This document shows positions 1 through 50,616 of a stretch of DNA of 64,000 nucleotides, one piece after another. How positions within the stretch are numbered: the stretch's first letter is position 1; the number at the start of each line of letters is the position of its first letter. The notes under the pieces are model-generated. The model saw only the letters and a list, made by a program, of their open reading frames with translations. It was not told the origin of the DNA and did no database searches. Position numbers and translations under genes: made by a program. The stretch is from Cytophaga sp. FL35 (GTDB taxonomy: Bacteria > Bacteroidota > Bacteroidia > Flavobacteriales > Flavobacteriaceae). The stretch spans positions 1 through 64,000 of the forward strand of contig NZ_JACSOH010000021.1 in NCBI RefSeq assembly GCF_014349235.1, read 5' to 3'.

Positions 1-3000
1 ATATGTTTGGGTGTCCGTGGCCGTGCCTTGGTTGCCGGCAGTATCGGTGGTCGTTACGCTGCCATCGACGGTCGTATCGCCATCGGCGGCCAGTTCGCTT
101 CCAGGTACGGATATGCTGTAGGCGCCAAGTGCATCAACGGTGCCGGTATAATCGGTGCCGTTCACCGTCAGGGTCACGGTATCGCCCGCATTGAAGTCGC
201 CGCTTACCGTTCCGGTAACGTCTACGTTCCCGCCCGCTTCCGTACCGTTCAATATATTGTCCGCAGTAATGTCGTCTATCTCTAAAATTGGAACGGGCAA
301 AGTTGTTATATGCTGAATGCCCCTAGAAGCTTGAACGGCATCTGTTCCAAAAACATTTGCGACATCTGCAGTAATTGTTGCATTAGCAGGAAGTGCCTGT
401 GCATCTGTAGCTGAAATATCCAAACTCCATGTATTCGAAGTAACCGTAGTGGTATACGTTTGGCCGTTTAAAACAACGGTGACTGTTTGTCCATCTTCCA
501 CATTGGTGGTTGTTCCACTAATGGTTACCGGACTATCATCTTCGGTAGCATTGATAATATCATCAATGGCCACTACATCAATGGCAATCGTTGGGGTAGC
601 TACCACCGTAATAGTTGCTGTAGCGGTTGAAGTATCATTATTAGCATCGGTGATGGTATAATCGAACGTATCCGTTCCCACAAAATCCGTTGCAGGAGTA
701 TATACGATGGTGTCATCGGTAGGGTCCGCTGGCGTTCCGTTGTTATCCACAGCTATTACCCCTCCATTTACAGTAGTTGCGGATGGTAAGGTTAAAGAAC
801 CAGCGTTTGGCCCATCGGCACCAAAATCGTCTACACCGTTTCCATTATCCGCCAAAACATTTAGGTTATTATTGGAGCTATCTTCCGCTACAGTAAAAGA
901 ATCATCCTGTGCAGAAGGTAGGCTATTTGCTCCTACCGAGATGGTGGCAATACCCGTATCACAATTGGTGGGGTTCGCGGTTTCGCATATCTGATAGTTG
1001 ATGGTATATACCCCGGAAGCCGTATTACTTGCGACATCAATGGAACCATTGGAATTTACCGTTAGTGGTCCATCGGTTACAGGTGTTAAGGTAACCTCTG
1101 CCGGGTTGACAAAGACGCCATTAATTTCATCGTTATCCAACACATTTGCCACATTAGTTACGCCCAAAAACCCTTCTACAGCGGATATATTGACATTGTC
1201 ATTTACCGCATCAATATGGTTATTGACGGCCAAAACAGCCTGCGCCTCCATGAGGCATGGATTGTTTGTATGAACCACCAACACTTTATATATATTTCCA
1301 TCCATGGATAGATCCACAGCCGTTAAATTTAAGGTGGAAGAATTCTCACCCACAATATTGGAAAAGCTAGTTCCCCCATCTGAACTTACCTGCCAATGAT
1401 ATGTAAGCCCACCATCAGCGTTGGTATCATAATTTGGAGTGCCTCCCGAATAGGAAGATGCAGCTAGTGCTGAAGCAACTACACTAAAAGTTGCGTCCGA
1501 TCCATTACTCACCTCTTGATTTACCGGTGCCGTATCAATCGATTTTTGTACGGCATTGGTAACCGCTAATGTTGTACCCGTATAAGAAGTGGTAGCTCCT
1601 GTAACTTGACCATTGGCGTCATAACCGGTACCATCTACTTCCCCATCTGAATCCTCGTCTAAATGACCAGCTTCCACAGCATCAAAACAGCCATCGTTGT
1701 CACTATCAATATCCAAGTAATCTGGTGTACCGTCTAAATCAGTGTCAACTGCTACGCAATAACTAAATTCATAAAATTGCATAGTAACATTTCCTGCTCT
1801 TCCATCATTCTTACCTGTAACAATAATAATGGTGTCTACTGCGCCTTTAGAGGACACTGAGATTGAGTTGTTAGGGGCGTTTGCTCCGGCAGAAAGACTT
1901 ACCACAGATTGATTTGAAATCGTAATATCAGCTGGGTTGACGTTAATATTAGAGATTTCTAGTGGTACATTGTTACCATTTAAAGATGCAGAAAAGTCAG
2001 CTCTATCTGCATTATCCAATCCGCCCCATTTAAACTCAGAAATTTGAATAGGCGTATCAAATGTGAAAGTATATACTGCGGCGTCAATATTATTTGCGTC
2101 CTTAGGATAAATATATTGAGGTAAAAAACTGGTGTTAGTAGGTTGTACATTTACGTAATTACCATCAATACCCGCCGTAGGGCCAGCGCTGTTAACTCCG
2201 TTGTTCCAAACAGCGTTATTAAGCAACTCATAAGAAAATGTACCGGTTACCCCGTTATAATTATAGGTGTTGACAACAGATCCATTTGTATTTGCATTAT
2301 CTGAAAAAGTAGTTCCTAAATCTATATATCCAGCTGGGCAATCAAATTCGTTAATATCCAAAATACCATCGTTATCCCCATCCAAATCAACGGAATCCAC
2401 AATCCCATCATCATCAGAATCCATTTGTGTTCCCCTAAGAGTAATAATCAAGTTGGCCGTATCGGAATTTGCTCCGTCCGTCAGCCTGTATTCAAAAGTT
2501 TCAGTCAATGTTTCGCCGACCAAAAGTCCGGAAACATCCGGATTCCCAGTATCCGGGGTATACGTATAACTTCCATCCGCATTTACTACAATGGTTCCGT
2601 AGGTACCGGTATACACGATACCCACGTTGGCCGCATTCGCATCAATCTCAGAAATAACAATATTTGGGTCAACACCTTGCCAATAAATATCGGATATTCC
2701 GGCAATTTGCCCACCTTGATCGGCATCCGTAGCGTTAGGTCCATAATTATAACTTAAAACCAATTGATCAATCGCCTCTTCAAAGAAGACATTGACATTG
2801 CCCGTAGCATCACTGGCAATGGCGTTACCAACACCGTAGTAAGTGCCATTTCCGGCATCAATAACCCCACCTGTGGTTGTTATGTTAAAGGCTGAGGAAA
2901 CCCCACCTAGGGTTCCAGAAATAGTCATTTGATCTTGCCAAGAAGTGGACTGGGCAAAATCTATATCGGCTACCAAAAACCCTAGATTGTAAACCGGTTC

Positions 3001-5172
3001 ATTAAAATCAATAATCAATTGGGTATCGCTAGATGGATTTGAAGCAGCATCAATTGCAAACAAAAGATAGCCTGTATGACCTCCATTGGTTCCCGTTTGA
3101 AATACCGTCTGGTTTTGATCCGGAATTCCAATATTTGATGGATCGGTCGAAGAAAAATTTAAATCAACTCCTGAAATGGTCCTAGTTTGTCCGTTTACCG
3201 GAGCCGAAAGCCCCCCATAAACGCCCCCTGGGGCACTAAATTCATTTTCCCATACTAAAGTAGAAAGGCCCCTATCTACAAAATCGGCGCCATCTACCCC
3301 AATATCCGTTATAATATTTCCTGAAACGGAGGATTCAGTTATAACGTAAATTTCATCGGTATTGTCCAAAGCTACGGGAGCTTCATCCACACCATTGATG
3401 GTAATACTAAGAATTCCATAATCAGTAATATCGTTGGCATCCTTTACCGTATAGGATATGATATCTTGTATACTCTCTCCATTCTTAAGTCCCGTTACAG
3501 CGGAATTCGATTCATCAACATCATAGCTATAGCTTCCATTTGAATTTATGGTAAACGTGCCATAAAGTGTTTTATAGGGAACCCCTACTTGAGGTGCGTA
3601 AACATCTATTTCAGAAACGGAAAGACCTGTTCCTGAATCCGGGGTACCATCCGTTAAAACATTACCAGTTACGGAACCTGTATTATTTGCGGCAATTGAA
3701 TTGGTATCATCAACTGCTACCGGACCATTATTATAAACCCTAATGGTGGTTGTTGCAGAAGCTGTATCGGAATTCGTATCGGTCACCGATAAATTAGCAG
3801 TTCTGACACCATCCGTTGGCGTGTTCGTATTGTTTCTGTAGTATAAACTGTTTAAAAATTCAATGAATACATCGTTAGCAATTGGAGTTCCAGAGAGTTC
3901 CGTGAAGGTAAAAGTGCCAAAATTCTGCACCATTCTGATAATAGTGCCATTTACCGTAAAATCATAGGTGTTTGAGGCCGCCGTAAAAGCAAATTGAACG
4001 GGTCCGTTGGTAACATACAAATATTCGGTGGCATCCACATTTCCACCAAAAGTGAGTGTAGCACTGGTAATGGTATTATCAACCGAAGTTAAGGTAGGGG
4101 ATACGGATATAGCAGCTATATTTCCTGTTGTTGGCCTAAACTGCTGATCATGATCAACACCTGCGGTTATCCCGTTTAAATCTATAACCGGTGAAGCTCC
4201 TCCCGAGGTAGTCCAAGGGGAAAAAGAGGTGACATTATTTACTATTAACGAGTTACTTGCTGCATCGTACAAGGTAGCCCCTTGGTATTGCCATCTATCG
4301 GAATTGGTATCGTACCTGTAGGCCGCTATATTATTTTCCCCATCAACGGGGGCTTCTGCATCGGCATAAGTAAAAGAAAGATTTGCCGATCCAGTTCCGG
4401 ATTTATCAAGTTGCCAAAACCTGTTGACCGTACCAGTAGTTAAATCGTTTCCGTTGGTGTTTACCATACTCGTGGCCGTCTCCGGTACGGTTGGCAAAGG
4501 TAGCATATCTGCACCTACGGGATAGGTAGATACCGTAATGGTGCCCAAATCTCCTGATGATCTTTCTATACCCATAGGAATGACATCACCTGACACAGTA
4601 CCAAAGGGGATGGTGTAAGCACCACCGTCAACAGAGGTTTCCCAAATAACCTTACTTTCGTTTAAAACGTCTTCACTTACGACAAAGCCTCCATTCTCTA
4701 TCAAAGCACCTACAACCGAGTTCGTTATTTGTAGCGTATGGGAATTTAAGTTAAGCTGTGCATTGTCCAAATCCAAAACTCCTAGGTTGGCCCCAGAAAT
4801 ATGTCCACCTACAATGGTATTCACGTCCAAGGTGGCCTGATCTACCTGTAATACCAGATTGTAGAAAAGTGTAGATGTTGTACCACCAATGGTTACAGGA
4901 GCAGTTGAATTTAAAATTACGGTACCTTCAGAATCGGTAGTAAAGATTGGACCAGTGGTATTGTTATTGATCCAATCTCCCCCAACGCTTATTAGGGAAG
5001 AATTCTTTATTTGACCTTCATCGGAAACATTTAAATCTCCTCCTTTTACTCGAATGGATGCTCCATCTACAATTGACACGGAACTGCCAATCAAATTAAG
5101 TCCATCTTGAGCCGAAAGTATAAATAGGTTAAAAAATAGCAGGAAACCAAGGTAATACGCTGTTTTCATCAT
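1..5172 (-). CDS. Giant repeat-rich secreted surface protein/adhesin, N-terminal 1724 residues (3' end outside window)
   Basis: One uninterrupted minus-strand frame runs from ATGATG at 5172/5169 off the left edge, so the C-terminus, where a T9SS sorting or gliding-associated domain would lie, is not visible. Residues 1-22 form a signal peptide ending SAQ. Residues 23-325 are Gly/Asn/Thr-rich and resemble a beta-solenoid. About 330-600 are cadherin/VCBS-like, with a VAVDDT motif near 478. Thrombospondin type-3-like calcium repeats (DSDDDGIVD, DGDNDGILD) lie near 917-945 and again at 1140-1178. An Ig-like unit sits at about 1215-1306 (HWQVSSDGG), further cadherin-like units at about 1317-1524, and bacterial Ig/Bap-type repeats at about 1533-1614 and 1628-1724. 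This build is typical of huge flavobacterial adhesins. Surface adhesion is inferred from it; ligand unknown. The start lies 46 bases behind the upstream gene's stop, so the two are probably co-transcribed. The last ~290 bases are more GC-rich than the rest. Confidence 0.85.
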   Translation of the reverse strand, partial: MMKTAYYLGFLLFFNLFILSAQDGLNLIGSSVSIVDGASIRVKGGDLNVSDEGQIKNSSLISVGGDWINNNTTGPIFTTDSEGTVILNSTAPVTIGGTTSTLFYNLVLQVDQATLDVNTIVGGHISGANLGVLDLDNAQLNLNSHTLQITNSVVGALIENGGFVVSEDVLNESKVIWETSVDGGAYTIPFGTVSGDVIPMGIERSSGDLGTITVSTYPVGADMLPLPTVPETATSMVNTNGNDLTTGTVNRFWQLDKSGTGSANLSFTYADAEAPVDGENNIAAYRYDTNSDRWQYQGATLYDAASNSLIVNNVTSFSPWTTSGGASPVIDLNGITAGVDHDQQFRPTTGNIAAISVSPTLTSVDNTITSATLTFGGNVDATEYLYVTNGPVQFAFTAASNTYDFTVNGTIIRMVQNFGTFTFTELSGTPIANDVFIEFLNSLYYRNNTNTPTDGVRTANLSVTDTNSDTASATTTIRVYNNGPVAVDDTNSIAANNTGSVTGNVLTDGTPDSGTGLSVSEIDVYAPQVGVPYKTLYGTFTINSNGSYSYDVDESNSAVTGLKNGESIQDIISYTVKDANDITDYGILSITINGVDEAPVALDNTDEIYVITESSVSGNIITDIGVDGADFVDRGLSTLVWENEFSAPGGVYGGLSAPVNGQTRTISGVDLNFSSTDPSNIGIPDQNQTVFQTGTNGGHTGYLLFAIDAASNPSSDTQLIIDFNEPVYNLGFLVADIDFAQSTSWQDQMTISGTLGGVSSAFNITTTGGVIDAGNGTYYGVGNAIASDATGNVNVFFEEAIDQLVLSYNYGPNATDADQGGQIAGISDIYWQGVDPNIVISEIDANAANVGIVYTGTYGTIVVNADGSYTYTPDTGNPDVSGLLVGETLTETFEYRLTDGANSDTANLIITLRGTQMDSDDDGIVDSVDLDGDNDGILDINEFDCPAGYIDLGTTFSDNANTNGSVVNTYNYNGVTGTFSYELLNNAVWNNGVNSAGPTAGIDGNYVNVQPTNTSFLPQYIYPKDANNIDAAVYTFTFDTPIQISEFKWGGLDNADRADFSASLNGNNVPLEISNINVNPADITISNQSVVSLSAGANAPNNSISVSSKGAVDTIIIVTGKNDGRAGNVTMQFYEFSYCVAVDTDLDGTPDYLDIDSDNDGCFDAVEAGHLDEDSDGEVDGTGYDANGQVTGATTSYTGTTLAVTNAVQKSIDTAPVNQEVSNGSDATFSVVASALAASSYSGGTPNYDTNADGGLTYHWQVSSDGGTSFSNIVGENSSTLNLTAVDLSMDGNIYKVLVVHTNNPCLMEAQAVLAVNNHIDAVNDNVNISAVEGFLGVTNVANVLDNDEINGVFVNPAEVTLTPVTDGPLTVNSNGSIDVASNTASGVYTINYQICETANPTNCDTGIATISVGANSLPSAQDDSFTVAEDSSNNNLNVLADNGNGVDDFGADGPNAGSLTLPSATTVNGGVIAVDNNGTPADPTDDTIVYTPATDFVGTDTFDYTITDANNDTSTATATITVVATPTIAIDVVAIDDIINATEDDSPVTISGTTTNVEDGQTVTVVLNGQTYTTTVTSNTWSLDISATDAQALPANATITADVANVFGTDAVQASRGIQHITTLPVPILEIDDITADNILNGTEAGGNVDVTGTVSGDFNAGDTVTLTVNGTDYTGTVDALGAYSISVPGSELAADGDTTVDGSVTTTDTAGNQGTATDTQTY

Positions 5173-47775: not shown

Positions 47776-49701
47776 TTGAACAAAGGCACATTAAAAATCT
47801 TACTTATATTCTCCCTTACCATAGTTTTGGGAAAGGGAGTATTCGCGCAAAATCAAAGTGGGGATCAACAAATACGCTTTTCCACGGTACCCAATGAGCG
47901 TGACACTTCTTTGAACCGCTATTACCAGACCCTAAAAGGCTCGGAATATGGCCCCAATAGATTTTTGGCTATTATGAAGTTGGCCGGGTATCATATAGAT
48001 AAGGCCAACTCAGACAGTATTATTCAATATGGGAACAAGTATCTCAGAGAGGTACGCCATTGGAACGCAGACAGCCTAGCCAAGTCAAGACATTTTTCAA
48101 AAGCCTACTACATTTTAGGTATTGGAAGTAGATTTAACGGTTTATTGGACAATGCCACTAAATGGCATATTCAAGGAATTAAGGAAGCCGAAAGCTCTGT
48201 ACAAAAAGAGTTTCTATTGAGAAACAAAATAGGTTTGGCCCACACCTATAACCTTAAACAAGAACCACAAAAGGCTATAGAAATTCTGGAATCCATTGCT
48301 GATGATTTAGTTGGTGAGTTTCAAATCCTACTACCAAAAGCGATCACTTTTTTAGGAGATGCCTATTATATACAGAAAAAGTATACTAGAGCACAGGAAA
48401 TATACAAAACCGGGCTTCAGAGGGCACACGAACAAGAGGATGCTAGACAAGCGCTAGCCCTGGAACTTAAGTTAGGTTCCTTAGCGGAATTGGATAAGCA
48501 ATATGATAAAGCTTTTGAGCTTTATAACACCGCGCGCGAAAAGGGCATGCAAGAAGGGTTTCTCAATATCTATTTTGAAGGAACCATACGCATGGGAGAA
48601 CTATTCTATCGCGAAAAGAACTTTGACGCCGCTAATGCGGCACTTTCGGTCGCCTATTTTAATGCTATTGAAAGAGACAATCTTCATTACCAAAGAGAAA
48701 TTTTAGACATACAGAGAAGGGTTTTCAATGCCAAGGAGGATTATAGCAATGCCTATGCAGTAATGACGCAAATGGCAGGTATTAACCAACAGATTGCCCA
48801 TAGACAACAGCAAAAGGTGATTAAAGAACTGGAAATACAATATGAAACCTTAGAAAAGGATAAGGAGATCAGTGAGTTGGAAGAAAACCAGATTTTAAAG
48901 GAGGCGGAACTCAAAGCCCAACGAACTATTAAAAATGCCATTCTTATAGGATTTCTTGTGGTACTCATACCCGTACTGGGATTACTATACGTTTACTATC
49001 AAAAGATACAAGCACAAACAGAACTTGCAAAAAAGAAAGAGGAAGTCAATATTCAAAAATTACAGGCCTTAAAGAAAGATCAGGAACTGGACCTCATAAA
49101 GGCATCCATTGAAGCCCAAGACGAAGAACGAAAGCGAATAGCACAAGAATTACACGATAGTATTGGAGGTAATCTTGCGGGAATAAAACTTCAAATTTCC
49201 GGAACAGAAAACAATACACACAATTGGAATATTATCAAGCAGCAATTAGATGAAACTTATCAGTTGGTGAGAAATATTTCCCACACTTTGATTCCCAAAA
49301 AATTCAAGGAAAAACCATTTACAGAACTCATCTCGGATTATATCAATACCATATCCATCAACGGTAATTTAAAAGTGAGTTTTCATAAATATCCAAAGGA
49401 AGAAATCAACGCGTTAAAAGATGCACTACACCTGCAACTTTATAAAATAATTCAAGAATTGATGACCAATACCCTTAAACATGCACAGGCAGACCAAGTA
49501 TCCATCAATCTAACCTTGACTGAAAATGAATTGTCGCTCTTATTTGAAGATAATGGAATTGGGTTTGATGCCAAAAACACAACAAATGGTATCGGTCTTG
49601 AAAATGTAAAAAGTCGTGTAGAAGAGTTAAACGGCTCACTTCAAATAGATTCTAGTATCAACAGGGGCACCGTGACCGTGATAAATATTCCTACTACATG
49701 A
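47776..49701 (+). CDS. TPR-containing sensor histidine kinase (NarX/DesK type)
   Basis: 641 residues. Start is TTG at 47776; the only upstream in-frame ATG (47740) is followed at once by a stop, and no ATG occurs in the signal peptide. A signal peptide (ending VFAQ) leads to a periplasmic region of TPR helices (about 50-345), a coiled stretch, one membrane segment (about 385-406), a coiled coil, HisKA_3 with phospho-acceptor His460 (RIAQELHDSIGG), and HATPase (LMTNTLKHA, FEDNGIGFD, GIGLENVKSR). Partner regulator is at 49972. TPR sensors of this build are common in Bacteroidota; signal unknown. Confidence 0.9.
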   Translation: MNKGTLKILLIFSLTIVLGKGVFAQNQSGDQQIRFSTVPNERDTSLNRYYQTLKGSEYGPNRFLAIMKLAGYHIDKANSDSIIQYGNKYLREVRHWNADSLAKSRHFSKAYYILGIGSRFNGLLDNATKWHIQGIKEAESSVQKEFLLRNKIGLAHTYNLKQEPQKAIEILESIADDLVGEFQILLPKAITFLGDAYYIQKKYTRAQEIYKTGLQRAHEQEDARQALALELKLGSLAELDKQYDKAFELYNTAREKGMQEGFLNIYFEGTIRMGELFYREKNFDAANAALSVAYFNAIERDNLHYQREILDIQRRVFNAKEDYSNAYAVMTQMAGINQQIAHRQQQKVIKELEIQYETLEKDKEISELEENQILKEAELKAQRTIKNAILIGFLVVLIPVLGLLYVYYQKIQAQTELAKKKEEVNIQKLQALKKDQELDLIKASIEAQDEERKRIAQELHDSIGGNLAGIKLQISGTENNTHNWNIIKQQLDETYQLVRNISHTLIPKKFKEKPFTELISDYINTISINGNLKVSFHKYPKEEINALKDALHLQLYKIIQELMTNTLKHAQADQVSINLTLTENELSLLFEDNGIGFDAKNTTNGIGLENVKSRVEELNGSLQIDSSINRGTVTVINIPTT

Positions 49702-49971
49702 AAGTTATAGCGCTTCTCTTGATGCTAGTAATACAGGGTTCTGGATACCACCTTTCCGATTTCCTGAGAATGAAGTACACAAAGATATTCTTACTTTTTT
49801 TGGTCATTGCCGGTTACATTTGGGTAATTCCTTTATGTTTATCCAGAAAGTGCTGCAATGGATTGCGGTCTAACAACGCTGGGTATACACTTATTTTTCA
49901 TCTTCACGGGGGTTCCTTTAGCCCTAATCCTACATATCATCCATTATTTAAAACTAAAAAATTATCCCTAA
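49698..49971 (+). pseudogene. Frameshifted (or recoded) small membrane protein gene
   Basis: ATG at 49698 overlaps the kinase stop (ATGA), and an inner ATG is at 49770. That frame reads a good hydrophobic helix (MKYTKIFLLFLVIAGYIWVIP), then becomes Cys/Arg/Asn/His-rich and non-protein-like and runs into the next gene. From about 49832 the +1 frame takes over with YVYPESAAMDCG followed by a second helix (LGIHLFFIFTGVPLALILHI) and KLKNYP, and stops at TAA 49969-49971, directly before the regulator ATG. One extra T in CCTTTATG (about 49830-49837) would explain it. Intact, it would be an ~88- or ~65-residue two-helix protein. Confidence 0.6.
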
Positions 49972-50616
49972 ATGAGTTTTAACATTATTATTGCCGATGA
50001 CCACCAAATGTTTATTGACGGTCTCTTGAGTATCTTACACGAGGACAATGAACTGAATGTGACCACCACATTTAAAAACGGAGCACAAGTATTGAAATTT
50101 TTGGAAATCAATGGGCCCCAACAAATTCATTTATTGATTACGGACTTAACAATGCCAGAGGTAGATGGTATAAAACTGAACAGTATTGTCAAAGATAAAT
50201 ACCCCACATTAAAAACTTTGGTGGTAAGCATGCATATTGATGGCGGTATGATAGACCAACTAATCAAAAATAATGTGGACGGATATGTTCCTAAAAATGC
50301 GGAGAAGGATGAGCTACTACAAGCCATCCGTACAATTTTAAAAGGGGGTACATACTTCTCTTCAGAAATTAAAAAGGCCTATACGGATGCGATGTTTGAA
50401 AATAGAAAGCATGAGGAGGTTCACCTTACCGATAGGGAAAAAGAAGTGTTGAAGCTTATTGCGGAAGAATACACCACTCAAGAAATAGCAGATTCCCTGT
50501 TCCTTAGCAAACACACGATTGAGAGCTACAGGAAAAATCTAATCGCTAAATTACAAGTAAAAAACCTTGCAGGTCTTACAAAACACGCCATTAAAATGGG
50601 CCTGTTGAAAGGGTAA
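49972..50616 (+). CDS. NarL/LuxR-family response regulator
   Basis: 214 residues. Receiver domain with acidic pair Asp9/Asp10, phospho-acceptor Asp58 (LLITDLTMPEVDG) and Lys in VPKNAEKDE. C-terminal LuxR helix-turn-helix: LTDREKEVLKLIAEEYTTQEIADSLFLSKHTIESYRKNLIAKL. Pairs with the TPR histidine kinase. Its ATG follows the stop of the intervening membrane frame without a gap. Confidence 0.95.
   Translation: MSFNIIIADDHQMFIDGLLSILHEDNELNVTTTFKNGAQVLKFLEINGPQQIHLLITDLTMPEVDGIKLNSIVKDKYPTLKTLVVSMHIDGGMIDQLIKNNVDGYVPKNAEKDELLQAIRTILKGGTYFSSEIKKAYTDAMFENRKHEEVHLTDREKEVLKLIAEEYTTQEIADSLFLSKHTIESYRKNLIAKLQVKNLAGLTKHAIKMGLLKG

Follow-up and report, generated by a model that had tools for sequence, protein, structure and literature searches.

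A small membrane-protein gene, apparently disrupted in frame, between a sensor histidine kinase and a response regulator in Euzebyella

Organization of the locus

The window, a stretch of 64,000 nucleotides from contig NZ_JACSOH010000021.1 of Cytophaga sp. FL35, contains a sensor histidine kinase gene and a response regulator gene on the same strand, with a short hydrophobic open reading frame (ORF) lodged between them. The features of the locus are collected in Table 1. In addition to its Pfam domains, the kinase has a TPR-like stretch that scored below the Pfam cut-off and one membrane segment as judged by eye. The TTG start listed for the kinase is the mechanical start of its ORF.

Table 1. 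Features of the kinase-regulator locus, in positions of the window.
Feature	Position	Strand	Basis
Sensor histidine kinase, upstream gene	47776..49701	+	Pfam HisKA_3 4.6e-10, HATPase_c 3.8e-13
Small membrane-protein gene with a disrupted frame; frame-0 ORF of 94 aa	49698..49982	+	Start and stop as in the intact E. saccharophila ORF (L036:7923-8210)
N-terminal part, native frame kept, hydrophobic segments 1 and 2	49698..49837	+	Gapless alignment to E. saccharophila (G002)
Lesion, two nucleotides fewer than E. saccharophila	49836..49841	+	G001 and G216 in frame too
Native C-terminal part, displaced to the +1 frame	49840..49971	+	76% identity to G002 residues 46-90
Second length difference relative to E. 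saccharophila, one nucleotide	49944..49950	+	DNA alignment
Response regulator (receiver and LuxR-type HTH), downstream gene	49972..50616	+	Pfam Response_reg 1.5e-18, GerE 2.9e-17

As the original prediction had stated, the ATG at 49698 overlaps the stop codon of the kinase as ATGA. The frame that begins here (frame 0) is hydrophobic to approximately codon 48 and reaches its stop at 49982, having entered the regulator gene by 11 nt. In the +1 frame, stops occur at 49825 and 49969 with none between them, and the TAA terminator (49969-49971) abuts the regulator ATG at 49972. This frame encodes YVYPESAAMDCG... and, from about 49840, a strongly hydrophobic stretch. The best 19-residue Kyte-Doolittle mean is 2.26 in the +1 frame versus 0.05 in frame 0 from codon 47 on. 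The description of a membrane helix in frame 0 that gives way to unlikely protein sequence, followed by a second helix in the +1 frame that ends at the regulator, was therefore largely borne out. Two details were not: frame 0 is not cut short where its hydrophobic character ends, and the count of two helices does not hold since intact relatives present up to three hydrophobic segments.

The native product, about 95 aa in length, is predicted from its sequence to be a hydrophobic membrane protein and belongs to an uncharacterised family. Four intact members had no match above the curated cut-offs of NCBIfam and Pfam, and a search of PHROGs and PADLOC with eight members returned none at E <= 0.01. 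Weak Pfam and NCBIfam matches to membrane families (best E 0.004) and a match to 7TMR-DISM_7TM (E 0.022) were sub-threshold and were not accepted. A Pfam KASH match of frame 0 (E 0.088) was also below the cut-off and was dismissed. Judging by titles and the openings of abstracts, the open literature on Euzebyella holds no paper on this locus. When the open literature was searched for a small membrane protein together with a two-component histidine kinase in flavobacteria, the one paper returned concerned a Riemerella system.

Intact counterparts in Euzebyella

With the 37 aa of the +1 peptide as a query, matches were found in all three Euzebyella genomes searched, one of which is that of the window. 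In E. saccharophila 7SM30 (G002, NZ_JACYFJ010000007.1), both halves are spanned by a single intact ORF of 95 aa, and a single intact ORF of 94 aa occupies the same place in the other congener (G001). Both small genes are flanked by orthologues of the kinase and the regulator. Over the parts compared, the kinase orthologues are 92-93% (G002) and 65% (G001) identical to that of the window; the corresponding values for the regulator are 93% and 81%.

The 95-aa E. saccharophila protein matches the +1 half in the window with an E-value of 3.6e-18 and the frame-0 ORF with an E-value of 2.4e-15. From this comparison, the two frames are parts of a single gene that is disrupted in frame in this genome. 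Two outcomes had been named that would have spoken against a joined gene, namely a second frame lacking any homologue and a 49698 frame conserved to its natural stop. The first is at odds with the intact orthologues in both congeners. The second is seen in part, as the E. saccharophila ORF shares the start and the frame-0 stop of the window, but its middle is read in what is the +1 frame of the window. The E. saccharophila gene resembles that of the window in its position between kinase and regulator, its start context, its frame-0 stop and the homology of both halves. It differs in having one continuous frame and in its length, with two extra nucleotides at the lesion and one near the end.

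At the DNA level, the window has two nucleotides fewer than E. saccharophila at about 49838 and one fewer at about 49947, for a total of three. The proposal that the two frames could be joined with one T fewer has to be amended, since the E. saccharophila sequence shows that two nucleotides are missing at this point; the net change of frame is the same and the mutation is different. In alignments across 49838, the frame is kept in G001, in G216 (a member of another genus) and in five solo family members, all of which had been chosen as intact ORFs. Because these sequences and that of E. saccharophila are all in frame, the two-nucleotide shortfall is taken to be derived in the lineage of the window. 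Two features expected of a frameshift pseudogene are found here: intact homologues at the same locus in close relatives and a disrupting indel that is derived in the one lineage, the shortfall being present in the window only.

The difference at about 49947 only sets whether the native frame ends immediately ahead of the regulator ATG or overlaps the regulator gene by 11 nt. The small gene has an 11-nt overlap with the regulator in E. saccharophila and G216, and ends just before the ATG in G001. Overlaps of 11 nt are also present in 12 of 24 kinases that directly adjoin a regulator. Both possible histories of this second difference need an equal number of changes.

The pattern of substitutions between the window and E. 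saccharophila was considered in terms of uncorrected Nei-Gojobori proportions, which for the short parts of the gene involve small numbers. Over 35 codons of the C-terminal part, pN/pS is 0.20 in the +1 frame (10.5 synonymous and 6.5 nonsynonymous differences) versus 2.5 in frame 0. For the N-terminal part (46 codons), pN/pS is 0.39, and the flanking kinase and regulator genes have values of 0.12 and 0.10, respectively. The +1 value of 0.20 sums both lineages and is compatible with a very recent break. Constraint on the C-terminal part over much of the divergence implies a recent break, continued production of the +1 part, or an error in the sequence. From these data, the break looks recent.

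Explanations for the interrupted frame

A recent frameshift, a sequencing error and a programmed +1 frameshift were the three options originally put forward. The first is the best supported, with intact single-frame orthologues at the same place in both congeners. Most likely, the locus represents a recent and lineage-specific pseudogenisation of a dispensable small membrane-protein gene in which the shifted frame was left open into the regulator. The low pN/pS of the C-terminal part does not distinguish this reading, as it is equally expected from continued +1 expression or from an assembly error.

A sequencing or assembly error, with an intact gene in the living strain, is unlikely. Such an error would agree with the intact state of all three other copies at this operon place (G002, G001 and G216), with the location of both the 49838 and 49947 differences at short runs, and with the constraint on the C-terminal part in the +1 frame. 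The remainder of the window speaks against it. The window aligns to a continuous stretch of the E. saccharophila contig, the longest block having 93.6% identity, and 42 indels are distributed over 63,320 aligned columns. Six of these fall within the 56 complete window ORFs of at least 80 aa (54,594 bp): two are 1-2 nt from the end of an ORF, two form an offsetting pair separated by 10 nt, and the small gene holds the last two. The latter are the only unbalanced indels that lie well inside an ORF, the other 55 ORFs having none of this kind. Each of the 56 ORFs has a match in E. saccharophila DNA that covers more than 93% of its length (the small gene by way of its frame-0 alignment). In the reverse direction, 53 of 60 E. 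saccharophila ORFs match window DNA to the same extent. Of the remaining seven, one is the small gene itself. Three relate to the limits of the window: one ORF lies beyond it, another is cut by its right end and a third is at its left end. The others are a repeat-like ORF, an ORF that lacks a match for its first 16 residues only, and a very long minus-strand ORF, which extends past the left end of the window and, being open-ended there, is outside the set of 56. From this indel pattern, general sequencing noise or an error-rich assembly is unlikely; a purely local error is less improbable. An error would also need two events within about 110 nt, or one error accompanied by one real difference, and the lesion is not at a homopolymer of five or more bases.

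Recent decay was also weighed against possibilities in which the C-terminal part is still made. It is very unlikely that both frames of the disrupted gene are still expressed, whether through low-level frameshifting at about 49828-49840 or through separate initiation at 49858, with the open frame being kept for translation coupling of kinase and regulator. If this were true, the organism would tune a two-component operon by means of a broken spacer gene. The shifted frame does stay open over the whole remainder of the gene. Among window ORFs longer than 600 nt, shifted frames are open for 48 codons at only 257 and 309 of 14,089 positions (about 2%), and openness this uncommon leaves room for a role. 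In the intact E. saccharophila gene, a 72-aa alternative ORF covers most of the shifted frame; with the frame already largely open in this relative, selection need not be invoked.

Use of the frame change itself, whereby ribosomes shift at about 49828-49840 to make the joined protein in a programmed or low-level compensatory manner, is likewise very unlikely. The C-terminal part is constrained in its old frame, no stop interrupts frame 0 in the region, and a review describes how "problem" and "savior" indels are compensated in translation (PMC5009743). In opposition to this, the intact orthologues in G002, G001 and G216 are read in a single frame and need no shift, and a shift site is accordingly not conserved. 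Any shift must fall downstream of 49825 because of the +1 stop there, and from this stop to the lesion, homopolymer runs of at least five bases and frame-0 stops are both absent. The only runs of this length in 49691-49990 are T7 at 49795, T5 at 49894, G5 at 49908 and A6 at 49956. Inspection of the interval by eye did not reveal any shift motif known to us. Transcriptional slippage at the T7 run was rejected since a shift to the +1 frame at 49795 runs into the +1 stop at 49825. Programmed +1 frameshifting, the third of the original options, is not supported, given the single-frame orthologues and a usable interval that lacks a slippery run. Programmed systems such as those of the prfB type (PMC12421855) and dnaX (PMC3711429) resemble the locus in that two frames jointly could encode one protein; unlike them, the locus has no conserved shift, no slippery run that could be found, and orthologues in a single frame.

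Least probable of all is that the gene has become two small ORFs that overlap, one for an N-terminal piece starting at 49698 and the other for a 37-aa C-terminal membrane piece starting at the +1 ATG at 49858, with its stop abutting the regulator ATG. This is the one ATG in the open and constrained +1 stretch, but it corresponds to an internal Met also present in the intact E. saccharophila protein, nothing points to initiation at it, and no such split occurs in either congener or G216.

With these alternatives considered, a candidate recoding event is settled as most likely ordinary gene decay. Among prokaryotic reading-frame transitions, 4010 pseudogene clusters are reported versus 146 that are apparently recoding (Antonov et al. 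2013, PMC3711429). Like the frameshift pseudogenes of that survey, the locus combines a frame transition with intact homologues. It differs from them in having a lesion at this site in one species and a shifted frame that is open into the next gene.

Distribution of the family and the course of decay

A search anchored on the regulator produced 31 matches in 28 of 299 genomes. Thirty of the matches were taken as loci; the E. saccharophila small gene was known separately and is a fourth carrier. At 24 of the 30 loci, the kinase ends no more than 32 nt from the regulator start or overlaps it, and three more have a wider gap without the small gene. The three that carry the gene are those of the window, G001 and G216. 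Where the regulator is only about 62% identical or lower, the loci may represent paralogous pairs. Among the five nearest loci outside the genus, the gene is present in G216 and absent from G237, G003, G154 and G028, the regulators of which are 75-80% identical. When the G216 protein was searched in these four genomes, nothing convincing was found (best E 0.067).

With a profile built from eight members, the small-gene family was found at E <= 1e-4 in 13 of the 299 genomes of the taxonomic family, counting that of the window. Three of the 17 profile matches were set aside, namely the two from the window itself and a weak one within an 804-codon frame, and the remaining 14 loci were inspected. 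Two of them (G001 and G216) adjoin a kinase and a regulator. At the other 12, a kinase or regulator of this type was not found in the flanking 1.5 kb or so on each side. A dedicated accessory protein would be expected to accompany the orthologous kinase-regulator pair consistently and to be confined to such operons. Instead, the gene is present at three of 30 loci plus that of E. saccharophila, and the family mostly resides elsewhere. The notion that the intact protein is an accessory component of this two-component system is weak given these numbers and its absence from four of the five nearest outside loci.

Family copies in G053 (L095:1504-1728) and G051 (L096:1504-1752) contain stops and frame changes, although these interrupted copies could themselves be assembly errors. 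Since most related kinase-regulator loci are without the gene and two more family members are interrupted, the gene looks dispensable. The patchy occurrence, the general lack of a link to a signalling pair and the interrupted copies together suggest a gene that is apparently prone to decay.

The probable decay of the gene may be considered in terms of a short series of steps. A net loss of two nucleotides at about 49838 would have shifted the frame after hydrophobic segment 2. As a result, the last membrane segment would no longer be made from the gene's own start, and the native product would presumably be lost in any useful amount. The separate one-nucleotide difference at about 49947 would alter only the tail of the native frame. 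With the shifted frame open to the regulator start, ribosomes would still reach the regulator, with a likely bearing on its translation, and the break might be tolerated for this reason.

The comparison brings to light an uncharacterised family of small membrane proteins encoded between kinase and regulator in Euzebyella and a second genus, that of G216. Interrupted copies of the family in three genomes call for caution in assigning a function to such small genes from their neighborhood.

Several additional observations were made. The interrupted copies in G053 and G051 are from two other genera and have similar neighboring genes and apparently different lesions. In three genera (L087, L088 and L091), a solo member is found about 5 nt after a conserved protein of about 92 aa that begins MKKWIFK or MKKRIFK, and the two may constitute a two-gene cassette. 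Kinases without the small gene (L038 in G237 and L040 in G003) and the small gene of G216 (L041) have the same type of 11-nt overlap with the regulator, for example ending in HEI, as if the small gene had entered just upstream of that overlap. At the left end of the window, the minus-strand ORF is at least 1724 codons in length (1-5172), and its counterpart in E. saccharophila is 1048 aa. The two differ by one nucleotide at 1613, and approximately 600 nt of window sequence (1747-2347) is unaligned.
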